Below, in pieces: positions 1 to 21,522 of a stretch of 40,517 nt of DNA. Both the position numbers and the translations under genes were made by a program. Source of the DNA: a virus. Every line of letters starts with the position of its first letter. Position 1 is the first letter of the stretch. The notes under the pieces are model-generated. The model saw nothing but the letters and a program-made list of their open reading frames with translations. It had not been told where the DNA came from and searched no databases. The DNA lies in IMG/VR virus record IMGVR_UViG_3300042568_000311, positions 1-40,517 of that record. The stretch is one strand, 5' to 3'.

Positions 1-327
1 TAAAATAGGCGCCGTACCCCCTGAACAAAATTCAAAATCTGTAGTATCCGCAATATCCCAATTATTAAAATTACAAATACTAGAATTTGTAGATGAGGAA
101 AAAATTGTAACTCCGGGATTCAATACGTCTTCAAAAGACCACCCGTTTATTACGAAATTCCAATATATTATATAATTGTTTCCTGAATAACTACCAATAT
201 AATATGGTTTTTCACCATAACCTGTATTAATATAACCTTCTTGAAACAAATCGACGCTAAAAACGCTCTCATCAGAACATTCAAAACTTAATTTAAGACA
301 AACACAGGCACTTGATCCACCAGCCAT
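1..327 (-). CDS. Structural/fibre-type protein, N-terminal part only (cut by left edge)
   Basis: An ATG at 327 opens a frame that stays open for 109 codons to base 1, so the gene continues beyond the window. The protein begins MAGGSSACVCLKLSFEC and continues with a Tyr/Gly/Asn/Trp-rich stretch (GYGEKPYYIGSYSGNNYIIY) that looks like beta-strand-rich tail or fibre sequence. A CxC near the start (ACVC) and further cysteines resemble the Cys-rich ends of the preceding tail genes. It starts 25 bases after the stop of the upstream glycosyltransferase gene. I do not recognise the family. The structural role is inferred from composition and position at the end of the tail module. Confidence 0.7.
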   Translation of the reverse strand, partial: MAGGSSACVCLKLSFECSDESVFSVDLFQEGYINTGYGEKPYYIGSYSGNNYIIYWNFVINGWSFEDVLNPGVTIFSSSTNSSICNFNNWDIADTTDFEFCSGGTAPIL

Positions 328-352: not shown

Positions 353-1333
353 TTAGTTTTCATTTTTAATTATGCTTTTCATAATTTCAATGTATTTTAT
401 TGTAGAACTATTCTTATCAATATAATCGAAATGATTAATATTTTGTTTTAATCTATCTAAAGGGTTGACATTAATATATTCTCCTTTATAAAATTTTTTA
501 CTTTTTAAATTTTCTGTCACACCCGCCATATGTAAAATTGGTTTTTTTTCATAAGTCTTAATGTCGTCAGTTGCCCAAGAAAAATCTAAACTATTATGTA
601 TTTTTGTTTCAAAACCAAAATACCATAAATTCCATAATAAAGACCACATTTCAGCTGTCCAAAATTGAATTTGTCCCGGATTAATTGGAAATCTTTTTTG
701 GTAATCTAACATTTGATTATACAAGGGAGTACAATCTGAATATATTTTTTCCCACATATCTTTGTTTGTGTTTTTTATAATATATTGACCTCCACCTGAG
801 TTTTCTTGATTACATTTTACACAATCAATAGTAATTCCGACAACATTAACCATTTCATCTAATAATTGTTCTTTATTTGAATTTGGGTGATGTTTTTCAT
901 ATCTGTCACAACAATCTTTTATGTAGTTGTAACCAATATAACCTATAGTATCGGATAAATAAATTATGTCGTCTTTTAATAAGTCATCATAATTTGGTTT
1001 TTCTCTAAAAACAATATCCGCATCGTGAAGAAAAAAATTTTTACCCAAACTAGGATATTGTTCTAACCATTTTGATATTAAAAATGGTTTTATACTGGGT
1101 ATATATTTTTTATCTTTTCTATCATCAATATAGTGATGAACGTTAACTTCATATTTTTTTAAATTAAGTGACCCTGTTGTGGGATTTTCTCTACCATTCT
1201 TTAACGCAAAGATAACGTGAATATTTTTTGGATTAATACCTTTTTCAATAAAATTATTTATGTAGATTTCTGATTGCCAATGGAAATAGGGTACATCGGG
1301 TTGTGCCGAAACAAATACTAAATCATTATTCAT
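353..1333 (-). CDS. Putative glycosyltransferase (GT-A fold type) in the tail-fibre cluster
   Basis: The 326-residue protein has an N-terminal Rossmann-like stretch (LVFVSAQPDVPYFHWQSEIY) and a clear DxD-type motif in FFLHDADIVF (D104/D106), the metal and nucleotide-sugar binding signature of GT-A glycosyltransferases. Downstream, NSGGGQYIIKN and PGQIQFWTAEMW resemble the acceptor-side segments of such enzymes. There is no signal peptide or membrane segment, so it should act in the cytoplasm. It lies directly downstream of the SprB-repeat adhesin and the 73-residue protein and upstream of another structural gene. Modification of a tail or fibre protein, or of a host glycan or phage DNA, are all possible and the sequence does not decide between them. 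The family call rests on the DxD motif and overall look, not on a database match. Confidence 0.65.
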   Translation of the reverse strand: MNNDLVFVSAQPDVPYFHWQSEIYINNFIEKGINPKNIHVIFALKNGRENPTTGSLNLKKYEVNVHHYIDDRKDKKYIPSIKPFLISKWLEQYPSLGKNFFLHDADIVFREKPNYDDLLKDDIIYLSDTIGYIGYNYIKDCCDRYEKHHPNSNKEQLLDEMVNVVGITIDCVKCNQENSGGGQYIIKNTNKDMWEKIYSDCTPLYNQMLDYQKRFPINPGQIQFWTAEMWSLLWNLWYFGFETKIHNSLDFSWATDDIKTYEKKPILHMAGVTENLKSKKFYKGEYINVNPLDRLKQNINHFDYIDKNSSTIKYIEIMKSIIKNEN

Positions 1334-1353: not shown

Positions 1354-1575
1354 TCAAGAACAATAAAGTATTTCGAAATTTTCACATTCAGAACACACAA
1401 TTCTTAATAGTATTACGGGAGCGTAAATATATTGTGAAGGTAGATTAAATGAAACAGGAAAAGATGGTGTTGTGATTTGTCCTATTTCAACGCATTCCGT
1501 ATTATATATAGTACAAACATAAACACTACACGGAAATGAGTCGCCAGAAACGTTATTTATTTCAACTGATGTCAT
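1354..1575 (-). CDS. Small Cys-rich protein, probably a tail/fibre component
   Basis: This 73-residue protein starts immediately after the stop of the SprB-repeat adhesin (TAA then ATG with no gap), so translation is probably coupled. It has cysteines spread along its length, including a CxxC in the VCSECENF segment, and ends in YCS. Composition is beta-rich (Val, Ile, Thr, Ser, Pro). There is no signal peptide or convincing membrane segment. Similar CxxC signatures occur at the C-terminus of the adhesin (SCVSCD) and in the gpI/gp7-like protein (PCEPC). I do not recognise a family. A small cap, connector or chaperone of the fibre is possible but is inference only. Confidence 0.7.
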   Translation of the reverse strand: MTSVEINNVSGDSFPCSVYVCTIYNTECVEIGQITTPSFPVSFNLPSQYIYAPVILLRIVCSECENFEILYCS

Positions 1576-3987
1576 TTAATCGCAAGAAACACAAGAAATT
1601 AAATATTTAATTATCATATCGATTCTAACTTGAGCACCTCCCAAGTTGGACGCGATATCTTCGCAATCATTTTTAACTTCAATAGTATTGTTTTCACCGT
1701 CAATATCGACCGTTTGTATTCCATTATAACTTAATAACAATTCGGTTATTGTTTCATACCATAAATTGTTTGATGGATAATCGGTAATTGATGTCCCAGT
1801 GTAAAAATATTTTTGTCTAATATCTCCATTGATATTTGTTTGAGCAACGAATACTGATTCATTAATTATACAATCTGTATCTCCGCTAGTTAAATCGTTG
1901 AATCCTTCTATTAGAAGGGATTTAGGTCCTTTAACTAAAACAAATCCATTGTCGTCTAAATTAGAGTCACATATATTAAAAACTTCATAACTAACAACGT
2001 TACCTAAACCATTAACTCGTATTGTTTTTGTTTTAGTACAACCGCTACTATCAGTTACTTCCAAAGAATATGTACCCGCGGTTAAGTTTGTTATAGTTAT
2101 ACCTGTTTGACCATTAGCATTAGGACTCCAATCCAATATAAATGGAGGTGTTCCGTCAGTTATTAATGCCGTTATAGTTCCGTTACCACCTAAATTAGCG
2201 TCTGTGGCCACCAAACTAAAATCTACGGAGTTTGTGGATATAACACTAAAATTAATATTTTGACCACAATTAGTCGCATCTGTAACCGTACCAACATAAT
2301 TACCAGGAGTTAAACCTGTAAATGTATAAGTTAATCCTGTCGTTATTACAAATTGGTCATTTATTTGATAGGTGTACGGTTGAGTTCCTCCTGTACTTAT
2401 GGTTAATGTTACTTCACCTTCCGCAGAATCACATAAACTACCGATTGTTGTGGCACTTAAACCAAACTTACTAGTATTGTTAATTGTGAAATTATTATTA
2501 TATACACAAGTTCCAACCCCAGAGTCCTCAATTTGAATTGAGTATGTCCCTGACTTTAACCCTGTAAATGTGGCGTTTGGACTTGTCGCGGTTTGATTAT
2601 ATGTATTACCGCTCGAATCTATTATTGTAAAATTATATGGGGATGTACCTCCAACCAATGAAATTACTACTTTACCCGAACTATCGTTACAAAATGAATT
2701 TGTTGTAATAAAACTAACTAAACTAAATGAATTAGGGGTTAAAAGAGCAACGCTTTGCGTGAAAGAACATAATCCGGCATCAGTAACAATAACCGTAAAA
2801 TTACCGCTACCTAATCCTGTGAAAGTATAACTTTGTGAAAAACTAATAGCATTAATACCATTAGACCCTAAATAACTATATGGAGGAGTTCCTCCTATTA
2901 CGTTTACGGTTATTTCACCGTCACCAGCAAAACAACTTGGGGGGAGTAAATCAAATGATCCGAAACTTACGGGTTCAACGTCAACAACCGTAGCCCCGGT
3001 TACTTTAACGCAACCTACAGAGTCTTCAACCGTAACACTATAAACACCTGATGTAATTCCTGTTATATTTTGAGTGGTTTCTCCATTACTCCAAAGATAA
3101 GTATACGGAGGAGTTCCTGTTAATCCTGTTATATAAATTGCACCCGCGTTATCAACTGAACATCCGGCATTATTTACAACATAAAACCCATAATCTAAAC
3201 TAGTGGAAGGTCCAACTAAAAATGTCGCACTTTGTCCTGTACATCCTCCACCATCATCACCAATTACATAATAATAACCGCTTTCAATATCGTTAAAAAC
3301 ATATGTATCAGATAATAATGTTCCAGATGTTACATATGTGTTATCTTGTTTATATAATTGAAAAGTCGCTAATCCGTAGTAATTTGAGGTTTCTGCGGTA
3401 ACCGCCCCATTGGGTAAATCACATAAAGTGTTTTTAATCCCTGTTATGGATACGCTAGTTCCGCTTGAAATGTAAATATCAATAGGATATATGTTGTTTA
3501 TAGGTAAACAACTATCAATTAAATTTATTGTATAGGTTCCTGCCGATAAATTAGTTTGTGTGTATGCCGTTACTCCAGGACCTAATGGAACAATATCGGA
3601 TTCTTGTAATGAATCAACCGTTATTGTTATGTCATTAGTAGGACTTGACCCCCCAACATTACTTCCTAAAATAGTTAGTGAATCTCCAATTTGGTATCCT
3701 GTGCCTGGGTCGCTAAGATAAACCGTATATACCCCATATAAGTTGACAACATTAAACTTAGCGTCAGCCCCGCTACCGCCTGAAGCTCCTACATTTGAAT
3801 AGGTGTTATTGTCAATAACATTTCCGCCGCTTGACGTATCTGTAAACCCTGAAACTCCGGTTCCAGGATATAACTCTTGTATTGAATAATCCGGAGCACT
3901 TCCGTAAATTTCTATGGTATACGCACCTAATCCGGCGTTTCCACAATCACCCGTAACCGATAAACTATATGATAAAGCGCAAGACAT
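1576..3987 (-). CDS. SprB-repeat tail adhesin / receptor-binding fibre
   Basis: The 803-residue protein consists of about seven Ig-like repeats of 75-85 residues (roughly 5-168, 176-258, 260-335, 338-418, 420-503, 505-584, 586-659) followed by a distinct C-terminal domain (660-803). The repeats carry SprB-type signatures: GTPPYTYLWSNGETT, then a (L/I)xSGxYxVxVxD strand and a terminal GC. SprB is the large surface adhesin of gliding Bacteroidetes, and the repeat is common in that phylum's surface proteins. Most repeats have one cysteine near each end. Residues 46-130 are a Gly-rich foreign-looking insert inside repeat 1. There is no signal peptide, as expected for a virion protein. It starts at a TAATG overlap with the preceding gpI/gp7-like gene. 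Host recognition or reversible surface attachment is the likely role, inferred from repeats and position. Confidence 0.8.
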   Translation of the reverse strand: MSCALSYSLSVTGDCGNAGLGAYTIEIYGSAPDYSIQELYPGTGVSGFTDTSSGGNVIDNNTYSNVGASGGSGADAKFNVVNLYGVYTVYLSDPGTGYQIGDSLTILGSNVGGSSPTNDITITVDSLQESDIVPLGPGVTAYTQTNLSAGTYTINLIDSCLPINNIYPIDIYISSGTSVSITGIKNTLCDLPNGAVTAETSNYYGLATFQLYKQDNTYVTSGTLLSDTYVFNDIESGYYYVIGDDGGGCTGQSATFLVGPSTSLDYGFYVVNNAGCSVDNAGAIYITGLTGTPPYTYLWSNGETTQNITGITSGVYSVTVEDSVGCVKVTGATVVDVEPVSFGSFDLLPPSCFAGDGEITVNVIGGTPPYSYLGSNGINAISFSQSYTFTGLGSGNFTVIVTDAGLCSFTQSVALLTPNSFSLVSFITTNSFCNDSSGKVVISLVGGTSPYNFTIIDSSGNTYNQTATSPNATFTGLKSGTYSIQIEDSGVGTCVYNNNFTINNTSKFGLSATTIGSLCDSAEGEVTLTISTGGTQPYTYQINDQFVITTGLTYTFTGLTPGNYVGTVTDATNCGQNINFSVISTNSVDFSLVATDANLGGNGTITALITDGTPPFILDWSPNANGQTGITITNLTAGTYSLEVTDSSGCTKTKTIRVNGLGNVVSYEVFNICDSNLDDNGFVLVKGPKSLLIEGFNDLTSGDTDCIINESVFVAQTNINGDIRQKYFYTGTSITDYPSNNLWYETITELLLSYNGIQTVDIDGENNTIEVKNDCEDIASNLGGAQVRIDMIIKYLISCVSCD
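2011..3462 (-). repeat. Tandem protein-level SprB-type repeats (repeats 2-7 of the adhesin)
   Basis: Six consecutive repeats of about 75-85 residues follow the interrupted first one. Each has an N-terminal C-x3-G type segment (for example SCFAGDGEI, SFCNDSSGK, SLCDSAEGE), a central G(G/T)xxPYxY/F core and a C-terminal G(L/T/S)xxGxYxVxVxD segment ending near a cysteine. The last repeat (residues 586-659) lacks the N-terminal cysteine. The copies are well diverged in DNA and amino acid sequence, so this is an old duplication rather than a recent tandem expansion. Confidence 0.75.
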
Positions 3988-6900
3988 TAATTACAATCTA
4001 TATTAAATTCAACCCCAATGTTTATTTTAAAATTAATTTCTAAATCTGATACCGAACAAACTTCATTATATATTATTACGGTATCATCATCGGTTAAAAG
4101 ATAACCATATCCGTAATCATTTAAAGAGTCCAAACCATTAATCAAAGCATCTTTCCATTGTGAACTTGTTGGTGTGCTAAGATTAACTATGTTATACCCA
4201 TACCCTGTAAAAAAAGATTCACTAACTAATACCACATCGTCAACTCTTAAATCAACATACCAAACAGAAGATAATGAATTGGTGTTACAATCATTTAACT
4301 CATATCCGTTTAACACCAAATAATTATTTAAAGTTGTACTTAAAACGTTATTAAACGATACCCCAGGATATAATCCGCATTCAGTAGATTCGACAGGACA
4401 ATCTTTAGCGAAAACATTAGTTTTAAATGAACAAGGTTCGCAAGGAACCGGAACTAAATTACAACCTCTTTGTCTTCTCCAAGCGAATTTTTGTCTATGA
4501 AAAATAGAGTTTTCAAATCTAGAACCTGTATTCCATATTGTACTTGCAGGCATCATTTGTTCTACAAGTCTAATCCAATAATCCCCAATACCATTAACAT
4601 ATTCTGTCATAGTTTCATAGTTAAAATTATTGTTCTCTATTCCAACATTTTGTTCTGATTGTAGATATTTCCAATATATTGACTCCAACGTAGGATATCC
4701 CATAGTCTTACCATTTGTCGCATATTGTCTATCTCTAACATTAATCATATTCTTCCAAAATGTCTGAGCAAATTCGAAAAATGTTTTTTGTTTTGGTTGT
4801 GGATTTATTATTGTTTCGTCAATAGGTTTATAAGGGTAAGGTGCGTTTAAACTTAATGGTGTTGATGTTCTTAAACTACTAAGTAATGACGGAACTACCG
4901 TTGATGGTGTGAAATCTAAACCTGAGTTTGGTATAGGGTAATTAAATTCTCTAGACATATACCAAATATCGTATAATATACCTTGAGACGGATTTAAAAA
5001 TAAATCAACATTTTTAACATTTAAAACTAGTCGTTCGTCTGCGGTATAATATAAAGCATTGTAATTACCATCAAGATTTCTTCTATATCCGTTTTCACTA
5101 TCAGTCCAACTTTTGTTATTATCAATTTGTTGTGTTAGAAAATAACCTAATTTCATATAAGGGAAATTTCTAAACCTATCTAAATAATCTTGACCATAAC
5201 TATATGGCGCTAATGATGTTTGATAATTGGGATTTGACCCCGTAAATACATTACCGGTAAGATTTAATTGTTCAGGAGCTCTGTGTTGTGGAGTTTGTTC
5301 AAACCATCCGCTACCTGATTGGAAAAAATACGTATCTGTTTCGGGCGGTGTTGATGGGTATCCAAATTCATCAATAGGGTAGTCACTTCTTTCTGAATCA
5401 GCACTTAAAACAACTTCCTCAGTAGTAAATCCTGTATATTGAACTCCGTAAATTGTAAAAACTTCACTAGGATTCAACACAGGTATTTCTTCAACATATG
5501 TTCCTCCTGATATTCTTGCGAACTGAGTTTCAAATTGTTGTAAATTTATTTTTTGATCAGCAACATAAACATACTCATTAAAATCTATTAAAGCTTCAGG
5601 CGCCCCTATCAATTTCAATAAAATTTCAACAGACTTTCTAGTTCCTTTTGATTTGAAGAGGTACGCCGAGTTTAATACCAAATTTCTATAAAACTGATAA
5701 TTTAATTCGTCAGGAGTTTTAGGTATTGGTTCACCACTAAACTGAGATTTTTCAGAATTTGTTGTTCCAAAGACTGAATTTAAAAAATCTTCAGAACTTA
5801 TAGGTGAGATATTTGTTGACCAACCTAATGTTTGTGCTAAATTTTTAAGTAACTGAGATGGTATATCATTTCCAACGTTATAATTAACAGAGTTCATATA
5901 GGCCAAAGCATTTACAAATTTTTGAGTTTCATCAAAACTCCTACCGTAAATTTGTAAAACTTTCTCCATTTTTCTACCTACCGTATCGAACTCACTAAAA
6001 GCTCCCGTAGTTAAAAATCTTGACACTAAATTAGTTCTAAAGGTATCGAAAAATTCGCAAGTTTCATTTAATTTAACCAGATAATCTTGGAAATAATTTG
6101 ACGTTATATCCAAATTCCAAAGTCCATTCAAAGGCCAAGTTATCCCTACTTTTTCAGTAAAATAAGTCCCTTCACTATTTTCTTTCGGTACATTAAAAAC
6201 TGCGGTGTATATTGGGAATGATGTTCTATTCAATAGAAAGTTTTCGACTTCATCTAAATTTTCTTTAAAAACTTTATTAACTTCATAGTCATTAGGTCTT
6301 ATTAATATATCATTTGTTACCGAACTTTGACCGGAAAAAGGGTCTCCTTCAACATAAATTTTTAAATCACCACTACTTAAAGATTGTGTTGGGACTATCC
6401 CTTTAACCTGATATCCTCCACCATTAAAATATAATGAGTATTTTGAATATTCGGCCGTCATATTTCTGAGGGACGAAACCTCAATCTCTCTTAGAGATAA
6501 ATTCCTATCCGAATTTACCGTGAAATCAATACCTAAAGGATTTCTTATTTTAGATACTTGTAAAATAAACGATGTTTCATTAGTTGTTTCATTAAATGAA
6601 ATATTTTCGGCCGTATTTCCCGTAGAATAATCCGCACCAAAAAAATTACACTCCAATCCCGCAGGGAATTGACTAATTATTACCGTTATTGACGCTGAAA
6701 CTCTTTTAGATAGAGACCCATAAACCGTAAAATTTGTAACCTCACTTAAATCAAAATTTGGATAAACTTTAAAATTATTTTCAGCAATTGCTTTAGATTG
6801 ATTTACACTATCAATATTAAGTTTTTCAAGATTTATTGGTTCTGAGAAAACGCCTGTTATAAAATTCCTATTAGTTTTTTCACTAACAGATTGGGTAAAT

Positions 6901-7019
6901 TCAAAATTTCCTTGCGTAAGACCTCCTCCTTGAACTAGTTGTAGTCCTACTAAATTATCAGAAAATGTTCCTTTTCCCGAAGGTGTCTGGGGTGGGCAAG
7001 TATATTTATTATTCGCCAT
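3987..7019 (-). CDS. Baseplate wedge protein, gpI/gp7-like
   Basis: The 1010-residue protein contains, at about residues 373-490, a segment resembling the P2 gpI family: PSQLLKNLAQTLGW, then RNLVLNSAYLFKSKGTRKS followed by VEILLKLIG. In T4 the gpI counterpart is within gp7 (about 1030 residues), which joins gp6 in the wedge; the similar length fits. The N-terminal third is beta-rich and carries no recognisable domain. Near residue 860 the sequence changes to a Cys-rich stretch with CEPC followed by a small C-terminal domain. The gene overlaps its upstream neighbour through TAATG and hands over to the adhesin through another TAATG. The gpI-like core is a fair call from motif memory; exact equivalence to gp7 is inference. 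Confidence 0.6.
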   Translation of the reverse strand: MANNKYTCPPQTPSGKGTFSDNLVGLQLVQGGGLTQGNFEFTQSVSEKTNRNFITGVFSEPINLEKLNIDSVNQSKAIAENNFKVYPNFDLSEVTNFTVYGSLSKRVSASITVIISQFPAGLECNFFGADYSTGNTAENISFNETTNETSFILQVSKIRNPLGIDFTVNSDRNLSLREIEVSSLRNMTAEYSKYSLYFNGGGYQVKGIVPTQSLSSGDLKIYVEGDPFSGQSSVTNDILIRPNDYEVNKVFKENLDEVENFLLNRTSFPIYTAVFNVPKENSEGTYFTEKVGITWPLNGLWNLDITSNYFQDYLVKLNETCEFFDTFRTNLVSRFLTTGAFSEFDTVGRKMEKVLQIYGRSFDETQKFVNALAYMNSVNYNVGNDIPSQLLKNLAQTLGWSTNISPISSEDFLNSVFGTTNSEKSQFSGEPIPKTPDELNYQFYRNLVLNSAYLFKSKGTRKSVEILLKLIGAPEALIDFNEYVYVADQKINLQQFETQFARISGGTYVEEIPVLNPSEVFTIYGVQYTGFTTEEVVLSADSERSDYPIDEFGYPSTPPETDTYFFQSGSGWFEQTPQHRAPEQLNLTGNVFTGSNPNYQTSLAPYSYGQDYLDRFRNFPYMKLGYFLTQQIDNNKSWTDSENGYRRNLDGNYNALYYTADERLVLNVKNVDLFLNPSQGILYDIWYMSREFNYPIPNSGLDFTPSTVVPSLLSSLRTSTPLSLNAPYPYKPIDETIINPQPKQKTFFEFAQTFWKNMINVRDRQYATNGKTMGYPTLESIYWKYLQSEQNVGIENNNFNYETMTEYVNGIGDYWIRLVEQMMPASTIWNTGSRFENSIFHRQKFAWRRQRGCNLVPVPCEPCSFKTNVFAKDCPVESTECGLYPGVSFNNVLSTTLNNYLVLNGYELNDCNTNSLSSVWYVDLRVDDVVLVSESFFTGYGYNIVNLSTPTSSQWKDALINGLDSLNDYGYGYLLTDDDTVIIYNEVCSVSDLEINFKINIGVEFNIDCN

Positions 7020-7927
7020 TATTGAGTAATATTTGTAAAGTTTTTAGTAAAATCAATATTATCTTTTCTATCTTGTCTAACCTCGTAAAGTAATTCGTTG
7101 AATTGGTCTCTAATTTCGTATAGGTTATATTGTTTGTAAATGTTATTATTAGAGTCGTAAAGAGTATACATACCATCTTCCATAGATTTACTTTGATTAC
7201 CGTAAAGAGCAATTGCAAGTGTTGAGAAGTCGTGTTCCGCCATTTCAATGTCTAATGTGATAGGATTAAAAAATGTATTAGTAACTATGATGTCTTGATC
7301 AGGTTGTCCAATATAAGGGACTGCAATTGGTTTATTACTTGGTGCCGCTGATGGTGTTAATGTACAAAATATTAACCCTGTATTACTATCACTATATCTA
7401 TATCTGATAGCTTTTTGAGAACTATTAGTTAAATTTTGTACTACAGGTTCACAAAAAAAAGAAGAGGTAATTATTCTAAAGAAATTAGGTATTTTAGTCC
7501 CATTTGTATTTAAGTACTCGATTCTAAACCCTACAAGTCCCTGATTTACAAATTTATTTCTAAACTGAGTGGGGACATTATTTAAATCTATAACTAATCC
7601 TCTGACATTAGGTAATGCCGATAAAACGCCGCAATCTAGTATTTTTGTTCTTATTTCCGCCGGTCTAATTAATAATGTATATATTCCAATTTTATTGAAG
7701 ATGTCCGCCGGTAATTTTAAATTATATAATCCTCCCAATAATTCAATACCATTATTACCACCTGTACTATCATTGTTAAAATAAGGTTTTAAAATTGAGG
7801 GGGTATCTAATTTTGTTAATACAAAATTATCTGTATTATCCCTAGATGGAGTATAATTTAAAATTATATCAACATCTTCAGGGGAAACGTCCGCGGGTCT
7901 TATTGTTCCGTAAATTCCAACTGCCAT
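7019..7927 (-). CDS. Tail/baseplate protein of unknown fold
   Basis: The 302-residue protein begins MAVGIYGTIRPADVSPED and appears soluble and beta-rich, with a more helical, charged C-terminal stretch (about 255-302) that could be an interaction tail. I recognise no domain. It sits between the PKD-containing protein and the gpI/gp7-like protein, with a TAATG overlap to the latter, so co-translation and assembly in the same baseplate or fibre-attachment complex are likely. The start at 7927 is the first ATG after a 16-base gap. A TATAAATA-like sequence touches this ATG but is too close to act as its promoter. Confidence 0.7.
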   Translation of the reverse strand: MAVGIYGTIRPADVSPEDVDIILNYTPSRDNTDNFVLTKLDTPSILKPYFNNDSTGGNNGIELLGGLYNLKLPADIFNKIGIYTLLIRPAEIRTKILDCGVLSALPNVRGLVIDLNNVPTQFRNKFVNQGLVGFRIEYLNTNGTKIPNFFRIITSSFFCEPVVQNLTNSSQKAIRYRYSDSNTGLIFCTLTPSAAPSNKPIAVPYIGQPDQDIIVTNTFFNPITLDIEMAEHDFSTLAIALYGNQSKSMEDGMYTLYDSNNNIYKQYNLYEIRDQFNELLYEVRQDRKDNIDFTKNFTNITQ

Positions 7928-16734: not shown

Positions 16735-18573
16735 TCAGGAGAAATTAACGGATTTTAGATTTTTAACTCTAATGTTAATATCTCTACTTGGAAATCTCAC
16801 TTGATATATTTGTGTTGGTTCCGCGAAAATCGTATCGTCTATTAACTCTATTTGTTTTGTTGCCGGGTTAGAATATCTTTGAGATGTTTGAGATGATGAG
16901 TATTGTCCTCCTACATTATTAAAAACTGAAATGTCTGATAAAGATATTACCCCGTTTTCACTTTGTATTTGTCTTCTTAATTCTGATATATTAACGTTTT
17001 TACCTAATTGCATATTGTCGGGTGAAAAATAATTAGTAACAAGATTGACAACACTTGATATTACGTTTCCTTGGTTTTGAGTGTTATCTAACACAATATC
17101 AATACCTAATGATAAATCAATAACTTTTGCGGTTTCAACTGAGATATAATCATTCATCATTCTATAATTAGATAAATAATTAGCAATATTACTTTTTAAA
17201 GTGTTTGAAACAATGTCTGTTAATACCCCATTTTCATCAAATGAAAGAATTTTTATTTTAATTTTATTATCTTCTTCAACAATAGCCACTTTAGCCGGAG
17301 CTCCGAATTGGGATGGCATTGTTCTTAAAATAGAATCGTAATCATTAACCGTAACTGCTCTATTTTGAGACGCGAAATTAAAACTAACTAAATTTCTAAT
17401 TTCTTCAAGTGTCGGTAAACCCGCACCCCCAATAGCTGCCGTCACATTATTACACCTTAAAGAATTGACAACATTAGCATTTACGCTTGTTGATGGTCCG
17501 TTTACAAAAAATGATACGGTTCCAATTTGAGTTATAACATTAACCCCTAAATTACTTGTAGTTCCTCCACCAATTCTATATTGAATGAATAGTGTTGAGT
17601 TAGGTTTTAGGGTACTGCCTAAGGCGAAATTATTTGAATATTTATATAAATCTAATTTATATCCGTTTCTCGCGAACTCTCTTAATTGTTCGTCAGCAGA
17701 TTGTGAACCGCCGCCAAAAGTTAGTTTACAAAAACCTTCAGGTGTATATTCGGTAATGAATTTATTATTCGCCGTTACGTATTTTCCAACTTTAATACCC
17801 GGATTGTCAGATGTTTTTGTAGGATCTTCAATAAAAACTCTATCTTCAGCAAGAGCTTTAACTTCGTACCACCTGTTCTCGGTATTTAAAAATTCTTGCG
17901 AATTAGGAACGTTCGCGTATTGTGTCCCATCCTTCAATATTACACTTGTTACACCTAAAACATTTTTTTCGGGTAAAAAAAGTTCGTAAAATGGTTTAAC
18001 TTCTTGTGGGGTAATAACTTTCTTAAATACTTTAGTAATCCCATTAACAACGGTTTCTCTTTTAGTTATCGTATAATTAACCAATCTATTAAAACTATCA
18101 AAATTTGGTATTTTTACTCTATTTGGATATCCTTCAGCGTTTGTTGGTGAAGTAAAGTCAATATCGTATACGGTTTCAAAAACTTGTCCTGCCCCAATAA
18201 CTTGAGATCCTCTTCGTAAAAGACCACAATACCTTAAATCCTCAGCATCACCATTTGCCGGAACCGTTATCGAAAAATCAACTAACGCGACTGATGGTCT
18301 TTGTCCGGGTATCTTTAATCCGTAAGTTCTTGCGATATTATATACTGAAGATTTTTGTTGTGCGTATTGTAGTACCGTTTCTTGTATACTCCTGTCAATA
18401 TTAAATTGTAGATTATCTGTTACCGCAGCATTTAAATCAATTAAAACTGAAAATATCGAGGCGTCATTGAAATTTTCTACTACTTCAGGATAATAAATTT
18501 TTGTAAAATTTATTAATTCTGTTCTTATGGAATCAAAATCTCTTGTAGTGTAGGATATTTTTTTATTTGCCAT
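16735..18573 (-). CDS. 6: Baseplate wedge protein gp6 (gpJ-like)
   Basis: The 612-residue protein begins MANKKISYTTRDFDSIRTEL and has the gpJ/gp6 N-terminal pattern: an early YTTRDFDSIR, then NFNDASIFSVLIDLNAAVTDNL and a block with IARTYGLKIPGQRPS. In contractile tails gp6 dimers join gp7 into the wedge ring around the hub and drive sheath contraction. Length is close to T4 gp6 (about 660). It follows gp25 by five bases, the usual gp25-gp6 partnership, since gp25 links the wedge to the first sheath ring. This is one of the firmest calls in the window. Confidence 0.88.
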   Translation of the reverse strand: MANKKISYTTRDFDSIRTELINFTKIYYPEVVENFNDASIFSVLIDLNAAVTDNLQFNIDRSIQETVLQYAQQKSSVYNIARTYGLKIPGQRPSVALVDFSITVPANGDAEDLRYCGLLRRGSQVIGAGQVFETVYDIDFTSPTNAEGYPNRVKIPNFDSFNRLVNYTITKRETVVNGITKVFKKVITPQEVKPFYELFLPEKNVLGVTSVILKDGTQYANVPNSQEFLNTENRWYEVKALAEDRVFIEDPTKTSDNPGIKVGKYVTANNKFITEYTPEGFCKLTFGGGSQSADEQLREFARNGYKLDLYKYSNNFALGSTLKPNSTLFIQYRIGGGTTSNLGVNVITQIGTVSFFVNGPSTSVNANVVNSLRCNNVTAAIGGAGLPTLEEIRNLVSFNFASQNRAVTVNDYDSILRTMPSQFGAPAKVAIVEEDNKIKIKILSFDENGVLTDIVSNTLKSNIANYLSNYRMMNDYISVETAKVIDLSLGIDIVLDNTQNQGNVISSVVNLVTNYFSPDNMQLGKNVNISELRRQIQSENGVISLSDISVFNNVGGQYSSSQTSQRYSNPATKQIELIDDTIFAEPTQIYQVRFPSRDINIRVKNLKSVNFS

Positions 18574-18578
18574 ATTAG

Positions 18579-19022
18579 TTAAATATTGATAATTACAAAA
18601 TCGCTAGCGTTAAATACACTATCAGTAATGATGTAATCTATTTTTATTTTTGCGGTATGTTCTTTAATACCTATATTTGGAACGGTATATACTCTTTCTC
18701 CATTGTCAACATAAGTCCCTTTATTTTCCTCATCCTCTGAAGCATCTTTTATTTCAATACTCGTTATTGTCATATTTGGTATATACTCTGAAACACTATC
18801 TCTAATTTCAGACTCTAATTGTGAAAATGTTGGTCCGTCTAATGGTTCAAAAATATATTCATATAATCTTGTTCCGAAATCAGGTAAATAATACCTTGTA
18901 CCCTTTCTAGTTAGTAATAAATGAACAAGATTTGACCTTATTTCCTCGTCTTGCGAATCCGATAAATCAAAATATGTTCCAACAAAAGAATCTCTAAATG
19001 GGAAGTTTATTCCGTAACTCAT
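18579..19022 (-). CDS. 25: Baseplate wedge protein gp25 (GPW/gp25 family)
   Basis: Starting at the ATG at 19022 the protein is 147 residues (T4 gp25 is 132) and begins MSYGINFPFRDSFVGTYFDL. The family signature is clear: EEIRSNLVHLLLTRKGTRYY followed by LPDFGTRLYEYIFEP, containing the conserved pattern around the EPR-type helix, then a beta-rich C-terminus. gp25 connects the gp6-gp7 wedge to the sheath and nucleates sheath assembly. A longer in-frame start at 19118 would overlap the nrdA end and run through its terminator hairpin, so the internal ATG is preferred. It is the first gene after that terminator. Confidence 0.88.
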   Translation of the reverse strand: MSYGINFPFRDSFVGTYFDLSDSQDEEIRSNLVHLLLTRKGTRYYLPDFGTRLYEYIFEPLDGPTFSQLESEIRDSVSEYIPNMTITSIEIKDASEDEENKGTYVDNGERVYTVPNIGIKEHTAKIKIDYIITDSVFNASDFVIINI

Positions 19023-19055
19023 AACTATTATTTTATTATAAATATAATATAATAC

Positions 19056-19094
19056 AAAAAATCCCGACATTATGTCGGGATTATTGTCGGGATT
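19056..19094 (-). terminator. Rho-independent terminator after nrdA, with duplicated stem arm
   Basis: On the minus strand a perfect 10-base-pair stem (AATCCCGACA / TGTCGGGATT, arms at 19082-19073 and 19069-19060, 3-base loop) is followed at once by a run of T (six As on the plus strand, 19056-19061). A second exact copy of the left arm lies just upstream at 19094-19085, overlapping the nrdA stop codon (19095-19093). The second copy could pair with the same right arm through a longer loop. Position between nrdA and gp25 marks the end of the replication/nucleotide transcription unit. Confidence 0.85.
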
Positions 19095-21522
19095 ATGATG
19101 AACATCCAAAACATTCAAATTCAGAATCTTTTGGTTTTTCAGGTAGATTCATTTTTGAGAAATCTACTTTAGGTTTTTCTATCGTTTTAGGTTTTTCAAC
19201 TTTAGATATATCAACCGCTAAGTGTTTTGCTCCCGTTGAAATTGCCTTTGTTCTAACATAATAACAAAGTGTTTTTAATCCTTTCTCCCAAGCGTGGAAG
19301 TGGGATGATGTTATTTTAGATATTGACGGATTCCCCATATAAATGTTCATTGATTGTGATTGGTCAATGAATGGGGCTCTGTCAGCCGCCATATCAATAA
19401 GTTCTCTTTGTGATATCTCCCAAATTGTTTTGTATTTAGGAATTAAATGCTCAATTCTCTTAACTTTCTTATGGTAATTTTTTTCTTCAGTATCCAAATA
19501 CTTGTTAAAGTTAATATTTTGAATTGACCCTTCATTTAATATAATTTCATTTTTTAAATCTTCACACCAAATTCCAAGTTTTTCAAAATCATTAATTAAA
19601 TATTTGTTAACAATCATAATTTCACCACCAACAACTCTACGATTAAAAATTGCCGAATGAGCCGGTTCTGTCATCTCATATGAACCTGTTATTTTAGCAG
19701 AACTCGCCACAGGCATTTGAGCCGTAAATAATGAGTTACAAACTCCATACTTTTTAACATTTTCTTTTAAATCCTCCCAAGGCCATCTTCCCGATAAATC
19801 TTGTTCTTTTAATCCCCACATATCAAACTGAAATACTCCTTTTGACATAGGTGAACCTCCAAAGAATTCATAAGGTTTATAGTTACCATCAATACAAAGT
19901 TTATTACTTTCTGAGATTGATGCGAAATAAATTGTTTCAAATATTTCTTTATTTAATTTACGAGCCTCATCGGAAGTAAACTTATAATCCATAATATAGA
20001 ATACGTCAGCCAAACCTTGTGTACCAATCGCAATAGCTCTTTGTTCAAGTCCACCTTTTCTACCTTTTTCTGTTGAGTAATTGTTAATATCGACAACTTT
20101 GTTTAAAGCTCTAACCACTTTTCTTGTTTCGTTATAAAGTAAGTTAAAATCAAATTTACCGTCAATAATAAAGTTCTTTAATACCATAGATGATAAAGTA
20201 CAAATAGCGGTTGTTCTTTCATCAGTATATTGATAAATCTCATTACATAGGTTTGATTGTTTAATTACACCTATATTTTGATGATTCGTCTTATTGTTTG
20301 CATTATCTTTAGAACATAAATAAGGAACACCTGTTTCTACTTGAGATTCTACTACTTTAGACCAAACATCTTGAGCTTTAACTTTCTTACCCAACCCCAT
20401 AGAAACCGCCTTGTCGTAATTTTCTTCATATTCTTGACCATAACATTCTTGTAGTGGTTTTATTCCCGCTCTTTTAATGTCGTTAGGACAAAACAAATAC
20501 CAATCAGAATTATTTTTAACCGCCCTCATAAAATTATCAGGAATCCAAAGTGCGGTAAATAAATCTCTCGCTCTTAATTCTTCGGCTCCCGTATTCTTTT
20601 TAATGTCTAACAAATCGAAAATATCTTTATGCCAAGGTTCTAAATAAATCGCGGCACTTCCAGGTCTTCTACCTTGTTGATTAAAGAATCTTAGTGATTC
20701 ATTAACTATTTTAAGATATTTTAAAAGACCTCCCGCAAAACCTCCTGATGATGATATTCTACTTTCTTTACTTCTTATATTAGACATAGATAAACCAATA
20801 CCTGCCGCGTCTGATGAGTATGTTGATATATCATTTAAGGTGTGTAATAATCCTTCTCTTGAATCTGAATTGTTATAATGTAATACACAAGAAGCTAATT
20901 GCGGAACTTTTGTTCCTGAATTAATCATTATTGGTGTTGCTGGTGAAATTAACTGATTAGATAATGAATTATAATAATCAACCGCCTCTTCAAATGTTTT
21001 AGTTACCCAAACCGCAACTCTCATATACATATGTTGAGGTCTTTCAACAACTTTACCATTTGGTAATTTTAAAAGATACATTTCTTGTAATGATCTCCAA
21101 GCAAAATAATCAAAATTATAATCGTTTTCGTGATTAATTACCTCATCAATCTTTTCTTTACCATAAAGAACCATAGTATCAATAAATTCATCATTAAGAA
21201 TTCCACTACGATGTAATTCCATCATAGTATCGTAAAAACTTGGATTAGTTTCTTTATGATAAGACGAAATCGCTACTGACGATGCTAGTCTTGAATAGTC
21301 GTGATGACTTCCAGTGTAAGCGGCGGCGATTTCATACACCAACTTGTCAAGTTCTTTTGTGGTGATACTACCTTCGACCGGTACTGATGTTATTACTTTA
21401 ATAAAAATCTCATCAGAATTAACACTAAGACCTTTTGAGGATCGTTTAATTCTATTATAAATCTTTTGTGGATTGAATGAAACTTCGTCCCCTGCTCTTT
21501 TTTTAATCTTCAATGACATCAT
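19093..21522 (-). CDS. nrdA: Ribonucleoside-diphosphate reductase large subunit (class Ia)
   Basis: The 809-residue protein reduces ribonucleotides to deoxyribonucleotides with NrdB. Residues 1-95 form an ATP-cone (allosteric overall-activity domain), beginning LKIKKRAGDEVSFNPQK. The active-site set is present: C212 (ASCVLHY), N424-C426-E428 (SNLCNEI) with the thiyl-radical cysteine C426, and C441 (TAICTLSS). The Tyr pair that relays the radical is visible in LCYYVRT. The C-terminus ends CFGCSS, a CxxC shuttle pair as in eukaryotic-type large subunits rather than the E. coli form. A GGAGG Shine-Dalgarno lies upstream and nrdB ends two bases earlier. All key residues seem intact, so it is probably functional. 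Confidence 0.96.
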   Translation of the reverse strand: MMSLKIKKRAGDEVSFNPQKIYNRIKRSSKGLSVNSDEIFIKVITSVPVEGSITTKELDKLVYEIAAAYTGSHHDYSRLASSVAISSYHKETNPSFYDTMMELHRSGILNDEFIDTMVLYGKEKIDEVINHENDYNFDYFAWRSLQEMYLLKLPNGKVVERPQHMYMRVAVWVTKTFEEAVDYYNSLSNQLISPATPIMINSGTKVPQLASCVLHYNNSDSREGLLHTLNDISTYSSDAAGIGLSMSNIRSKESRISSSGGFAGGLLKYLKIVNESLRFFNQQGRRPGSAAIYLEPWHKDIFDLLDIKKNTGAEELRARDLFTALWIPDNFMRAVKNNSDWYLFCPNDIKRAGIKPLQECYGQEYEENYDKAVSMGLGKKVKAQDVWSKVVESQVETGVPYLCSKDNANNKTNHQNIGVIKQSNLCNEIYQYTDERTTAICTLSSMVLKNFIIDGKFDFNLLYNETRKVVRALNKVVDINNYSTEKGRKGGLEQRAIAIGTQGLADVFYIMDYKFTSDEARKLNKEIFETIYFASISESNKLCIDGNYKPYEFFGGSPMSKGVFQFDMWGLKEQDLSGRWPWEDLKENVKKYGVCNSLFTAQMPVASSAKITGSYEMTEPAHSAIFNRRVVGGEIMIVNKYLINDFEKLGIWCEDLKNEIILNEGSIQNINFNKYLDTEEKNYHKKVKRIEHLIPKYKTIWEISQRELIDMAADRAPFIDQSQSMNIYMGNPSISKITSSHFHAWEKGLKTLCYYVRTKAISTGAKHLAVDISKVEKPKTIEKPKVDFSKMNLPEKPKDSEFECFGCSS

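Follow-up and report, generated by a model that had tools for sequence, protein, structure and literature searches.

SprB-type repeats are best known from surface adhesins of the Bacteroidota. Secreted adhesins of this type bear a sorting domain of the type IX secretion system, T9SS (e.g. PMC7073777), and their ORFs reach ~4,100 aa with up to ~50 units. In phages, the crAssphage BACON tail protein likewise carries a stable tandem Ig-like array typical of Bacteroidetes surface proteins, for which a role in host binding has been suggested (PMC6949934), and a study that does not mention SprB showed that binding to epithelial cells increases when BACON or other Ig-like phage proteins are displayed (PMC13370021). 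A SprB repeat in a phage protein is already known as a UniProt name: entry A0A6J5LD72 ('SprB repeat', 714 aa, uncultured Caudovirales phage) is a database annotation only, without function or host, and full-text searches of the open-access literature brought up no publication on such repeats in phages. Two proteins of enterobacterial T4-like phages, Wac of coliphage RB43 (L129:1908-4193, +) and the 'whisker' of phiEap-3 (L130:2647-3705, +), also exceed the cut-off of the Pfam SprB model, beside Ig_3, and SprB-like units are thus present in that group.

Here, we report an analysis of a 40,517-nucleotide viral sequence (IMG/VR record IMGVR_UViG_3300042568_000311; hereafter, the window), in which one gene encodes a further member of the family of A0A6J5LD72 (Foldseek E=1.1e-61, 30% identity over the length). 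The protein has PF13573 and the canonical motif in common with the bacterial adhesins. Its array is of the SprB type and has no BACON match, in contrast to the crAssphage array of eight BACON units that arose from traced duplications. The nearest solved structures belong to the Aureispira grappling hook GhpA (9flp and others), a comparable Ig-like chain which is, however, a bacterial surface protein of thousands of residues with 16-20% identity. The RB43-like Wac whisker resembles the window protein in combining SprB and Ig-like units within a T4-like virion protein, but differs in its fibritin trimer domain and its enterobacterial hosts. The reading that we prefer, at a probability of roughly 0.6, is that the product is a virion fibre associated with the contractile tail of a Bacteroidota phage and consists of a seven-unit SprB-type rod and a C-terminal domain for the tail-tip junction or a tip. 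Phage tail proteins would thereby be known to incorporate two Ig-like repeats of Bacteroidota type, SprB in addition to BACON.

Repeat units and predicted structure

The gene is a single minus-strand ORF with an ATG start. The initial annotation had described seven Ig-like repeats carrying the SprB signature, and the Pfam SprB model (PF13573, curated cut-off 28 bits) bears out the family assignment for the whole protein (E = 1.2e-23, 82.8 bits), with no match in 14 control genomes. Taken singly, four of the seven units are detected, R4 (39.8 bits) and R6 (33.5 bits) above the cut-off by themselves and R5 (24.3 bits) and R3 (23.7 bits) at lower scores, and R1, R2 and R7 have diverged beyond what the model detects. 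All six other units nevertheless align to R3 in profile-profile comparison with 92-99.5% probability, and the count of seven therefore holds as homology but not as seven separate Pfam matches. Of the signature quoted in that annotation, the exact PPYTYLWSNGETT motif occurs in R3 only, and a G-x-[YF]...D...C ending is found in R2-R7.

Pfam searches of the protein gave no match to the CHU_C sorting domain, to Fibritin_C (PF07921) or to BACON, and Por_Secre_tail reached only 20.6 bits, below its own cut-off, over the internal repeat at residues 438-489. The C-terminal T9SS sorting domain of the gliding adhesin SprB was therefore not found in the phage protein, and its N-terminus (MSCALSYSLSVTGDCGN) shows, by inspection, no signal peptide: a charged segment leading into a hydrophobic one is absent.

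An AlphaFold2 model built from 24 window and locus sequences predicts a beads-on-a-string chain of Ig-like beta-sandwiches, with pLDDT values per block of ~72-92 for R2-R7. Confidence is good locally and poor globally (mean pLDDT 74.9, pTM 0.32), the low pTM being explained by the flexibility of the chain. The best solved matches of the model are pieces of GhpA (Foldseek E = 1.9e-19), and the Ig-like fold expected from the initial annotation was thus recovered in both model and structural neighbours. Most units have two invariant cysteines (e.g. 276/326, 352/407, 433/494 and 519/574), which suggests one bond per unit. Coordinates of the protein, its parts and the neighbouring genes are collected in Table 1.

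Table 1. Features of the SprB-repeat protein and its surroundings (window coordinates).
Feature	Position	Strand	Evidence
SprB-repeat tail-region protein, 803 aa	1576..3987	-	ORF; PF13573 E=1.2e-23; place kept in ~32 viral contigs
R1 (residues 8-170), split by insert	3478..3966	-	profile-profile to R3 93.8%; alignment A1
R1 insert, ~90 aa, GTGYQIGDSLTILG	3595..3861	-	alignment A1; low pLDDT
R2 (residues 176-262)	3202..3462	-	profile-profile to R3 92.1%; beta-sandwich
R3 (residues 265-338), canonical SprB motif PPYTYLWSNGETTQ, most conserved	2974..3195	-	PF13573 23.7 bits
R4 (residues 339-419)	2731..2973	-	PF13573 39.8 bits, above cut-off
R5 (residues 420-505)	2473..2730	-	PF13573 24.3 bits; Y_Y_Y E=3.8e-8
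R6 (residues 506-583)	2239..2472	-	PF13573 33.5 bits, above cut-off
R7 (residues 584-660)	2008..2238	-	profile-profile to R3 99.5%
C-terminal alpha/beta domain (residues 661-803)	1579..2007	-	hhalign to upstream neighbour's C-terminus; model
Copy of C-terminal domain in neighbour protein	3990..4418	-	hhalign
Baseplate-side neighbour, 1010 aa, kept in all relatives	3987..7019	-	without known family
Small protein, 73 aa; family directly after SprB gene in most relatives	1354..1575	-	
Probable glycosyltransferase within fibre cassette	353..1333	-	phrog_4417 E=2.7e-75; weak Nucleotid_trans
Start of further fibre gene (704 aa in contig L005)	1..327	-	weak SprB match
Baseplate wedge gp6 / J-like	16735..18573	-	phrog_219 E=2.4e-22; Baseplate_J
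Baseplate wedge gp25	18579..19118	-	GPW_gp25 E=2.4e-11

Genomic setting and variation among relatives

In the order of transcription, gp25 and the gp6/J-like wedge are followed by six genes without known families and then by the SprB-repeat gene; replication genes (ribonucleotide reductase, DnaB-type helicase, UvsX-like and ssDNA-binding proteins) lie in the middle of the window. The six adjacent upstream genes and the SprB-repeat gene keep their order in ~32 viral contigs, the compared flanks of which stop before gp6. Downstream, the relatives encode small single-domain proteins, glycosyltransferases and collagen-like tail fibres. Because the genes between gp6 and the SprB-repeat gene have no known family, the term baseplate block draws on gp25, gp6 and the gene order. 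This conserved place, which in the window comes after gp25 and gp6 and in relatives has fibre genes on its other side, makes a tail-associated virion protein likely and agrees with the earlier description of a tail gene; for the SprB-repeat protein itself, we infer presence in the virion, the site of attachment and the binding target. No solved structure similar to the baseplate-side neighbour was found, nor were relatives of this protein or of the next one (7019-7927) among isolated phages; the best-conserved neighbour gene of the lineage is one without a match in that set.

All 24 aligned relatives have the same seven units and C-terminal domain, except where a contig end cuts the row. Within these alignment rows, the R1 insert is confined to the window phage and L006. 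When the units were cut from the alignment and compared all against all, the best match was the same position in another phage for 166 of 167 units, with 52% identity at the same position versus 31% elsewhere. R3 has a mean pair identity of 65.5%, compared with 42-50% for the remaining units and 47% for the C-terminal domain. R3 is therefore more conserved than the body of the neighbour protein (59.4%), which suggests that this unit may have a specific role beyond that of a plain stalk.

The C-terminal domain recurs at the C-terminus of the baseplate-side neighbour (hhalign 95.4%, E=1.8e-8, versus 0.2% for an unrelated control) and has no significant fold match. In the families of both proteins it may be followed by Pro-Thr linkers and unrelated tips, with tails of 0-395 aa in the SprB-repeat family and 0-142 aa in that of the neighbour. 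The window phage has no tip on its SprB-repeat protein, and the 81% identical protein of L006 has one of 241 aa. Since many relatives continue beyond the shared domain with a Pro-Thr linker and a swappable tip, specificity probably resides in the tips and the repeats are probably mainly a stalk. This gives a defined and testable division between a constant rod and exchangeable tips.

The fibre cassette itself contains glycosyltransferases, namely the phrog_4417 gene of the window and PF11397 genes of the GlcNAc type in relatives (L011:16990-18189), which adjoin collagen-like fibre genes; these enzymes perhaps glycosylate Thr-rich linkers or fibres. A phrog_4417 gene adjoins the major tail protein gene in Enterococcus phages. 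Directly after the SprB gene, most relatives encode one to three small proteins, usually of 69-105 aa (window 1354-1575; L011:13318-13890), with 'TGGTPPYxFYVCD' starts and short repeated ends, e.g. 'FILTEDGFILTTEDGD' or 'FQDGxxFEFMDGxxYxFQ', which are possibly docking tags. Additional SprB-bearing genes (~540 and ~700 aa) occur in the cassette at window positions 1-327 and in the contigs of L019, L022, L023, L025 and L036, and the 229-kb contig of L025 has more of them at a second place.

Origin of the array and probable host

The initial annotation had offered acquisition of the repeats from host DNA as one explanation. A recent capture would account for a domain family common to phage and host, for closest prokaryotic matches that come almost exclusively from Bacteroidota adhesins (up to E=1e-47, an E-value relative to the candidate stretches) and for a gene GC of 35.6%, above most of the window. 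The GC excess, however, is attributable to a Gly/Ser/Thr/Asn content of 43.6%, as GC3 (0.211) equals that of the phage's other genes (range within the window, 0.165-0.295). The position-wise conservation described above and the greater internal uniformity of bacterial SprB arrays (mean identity 48%) also argue against recent capture, which we consider highly improbable and rejected on the strength of position conservation and GC3. Position-wise conservation and background-like third-base composition instead mark the array as an old, long-standing part of this phage group, as judged from sequence comparison.

A tree of 79 units places R3 and R7 with bacterial units, and R2, R4, R5 and R6 stand apart from them across a branch with support of 96/89. 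Monophyly of the full set of phage units is not rejected (AU p = 0.32). An old kinship between phage and bacterial repeats is clear from these sequences, and the tree, with 69 columns and a bacterial set fetched with phage peptides that included the motif of R3 and thus favoured R3-like repeats, gives no direction of exchange.

Of 99 Bacteroidota genomes, 16 had SprB arrays at E<=1e-10, compared with 1 of 150 genomes from another phylum, both counts including a centre genome picked for having SprB; the second phylum is that of a MAG titled Ectothiorhodospiraceae, and its lone positive MAG may be contaminated. As coliphage RB43 Wac (41.9 bits) exceeds the PF13573 cut-off, as does the phiEap-3 protein, SprB is a weak host marker by itself, and its use as the sole marker was rejected. 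Bacteroidetes have no Shine-Dalgarno sequences (PMC6847099). A Shine-Dalgarno motif precedes 4% of the family's genes versus 21% in the control stretch; the corresponding values are 6% versus 13% in Bacteroidota loci, and 50-60% of 5-6 genes in two T4-like phage loci. Together, the SprB arrays and the Shine-Dalgarno depletion make a Bacteroidota host likely, in line with the phylum first proposed.

Proposed function and alternative explanations

In the preferred reading, the seven Ig-like units would form a rod, and the C-terminal domain common to the baseplate-side neighbour would join it to the tail-tip network or bear a tip, many relatives having an exchangeable one after a Pro-Thr linker. 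The rod would push the contact points of the tail outward from the baseplate and might make a weak first contact with the cell surface, a role modelled on other phage Ig-like arrays and on the BACON arrays of crAssphage, and specificity would be a matter of the tips and of other fibre proteins encoded in the cassette. Points against this reading are that the shared domain has no significant fold match, that the genes between gp6 and the SprB-repeat gene belong to no known family, that R3 is conserved above the neighbour's body and that the window phage has no tip on this protein.

The protein could instead sit at the collar or capsid, as a neck whisker or head decoration like T4 Wac or Hoc. 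RB43 Wac combines Fibritin_C and Ig_3 with SprB and its gene comes after the gp11-gp12 tail genes, SprB/Ig units occur in proteins of Klebsiella-type phages labelled whisker or Hoc, and the A1 profile weakly matches the neck whisker protein gp24 (9occ, E=0.0017) and decoration proteins. We nevertheless regard this placement as unlikely, given that the window protein has no Fibritin_C match, shares its C-terminal domain with a neighbour encoded in the baseplate block and is followed by tail-fibre genes. That the array is simply a generic phage Ig-like one, with 'SprB' the label of a permissive profile, would fit the scores of the coliphage proteins, the Ig-like arrays described in phage tails (PMC6949934) and the single phage clade that the tree allows; the full-length motif, the nearest repeats in Bacteroidota adhesins and the empty control genomes make it very unlikely.

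The initial annotation had also proposed mimicry of the host adhesin to reach its surface glycans. In this reading the repeats, chiefly R3, would recognise the glycans or partners to which host SprB binds. R3 has retained the canonical motif, is the most conserved unit and lies among bacterial repeats in the tree, but four other units lie apart from these, and the way in which the bacterial set was fetched favours the placement of R3; as a reading of sequence, mimicry appears quite unlikely. The specific proposal that R3 is a working SprB unit, docking the phage to whatever host SprB touches (a glycan, one another or the gliding surface), is a long shot. If true, the phage would land on its host via the gliding adhesin's own contacts. 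The binding partner of R3 could reveal what SprB repeats themselves bind.

A different type of SprB protein was observed in LR756502.1 ('uncultured phage', 642 kb). The 1670-aa product (L131:5325-10337, +) has the form of a host-type secreted adhesin: it opens with a signal-like start, carries 13 SprB stretches and a PKD domain, and bears a CHU_C type IX secretion signal. The phage might make it for display on the surface of the infected cell, or its presence in this huge-phage genome may reflect mis-assembly.
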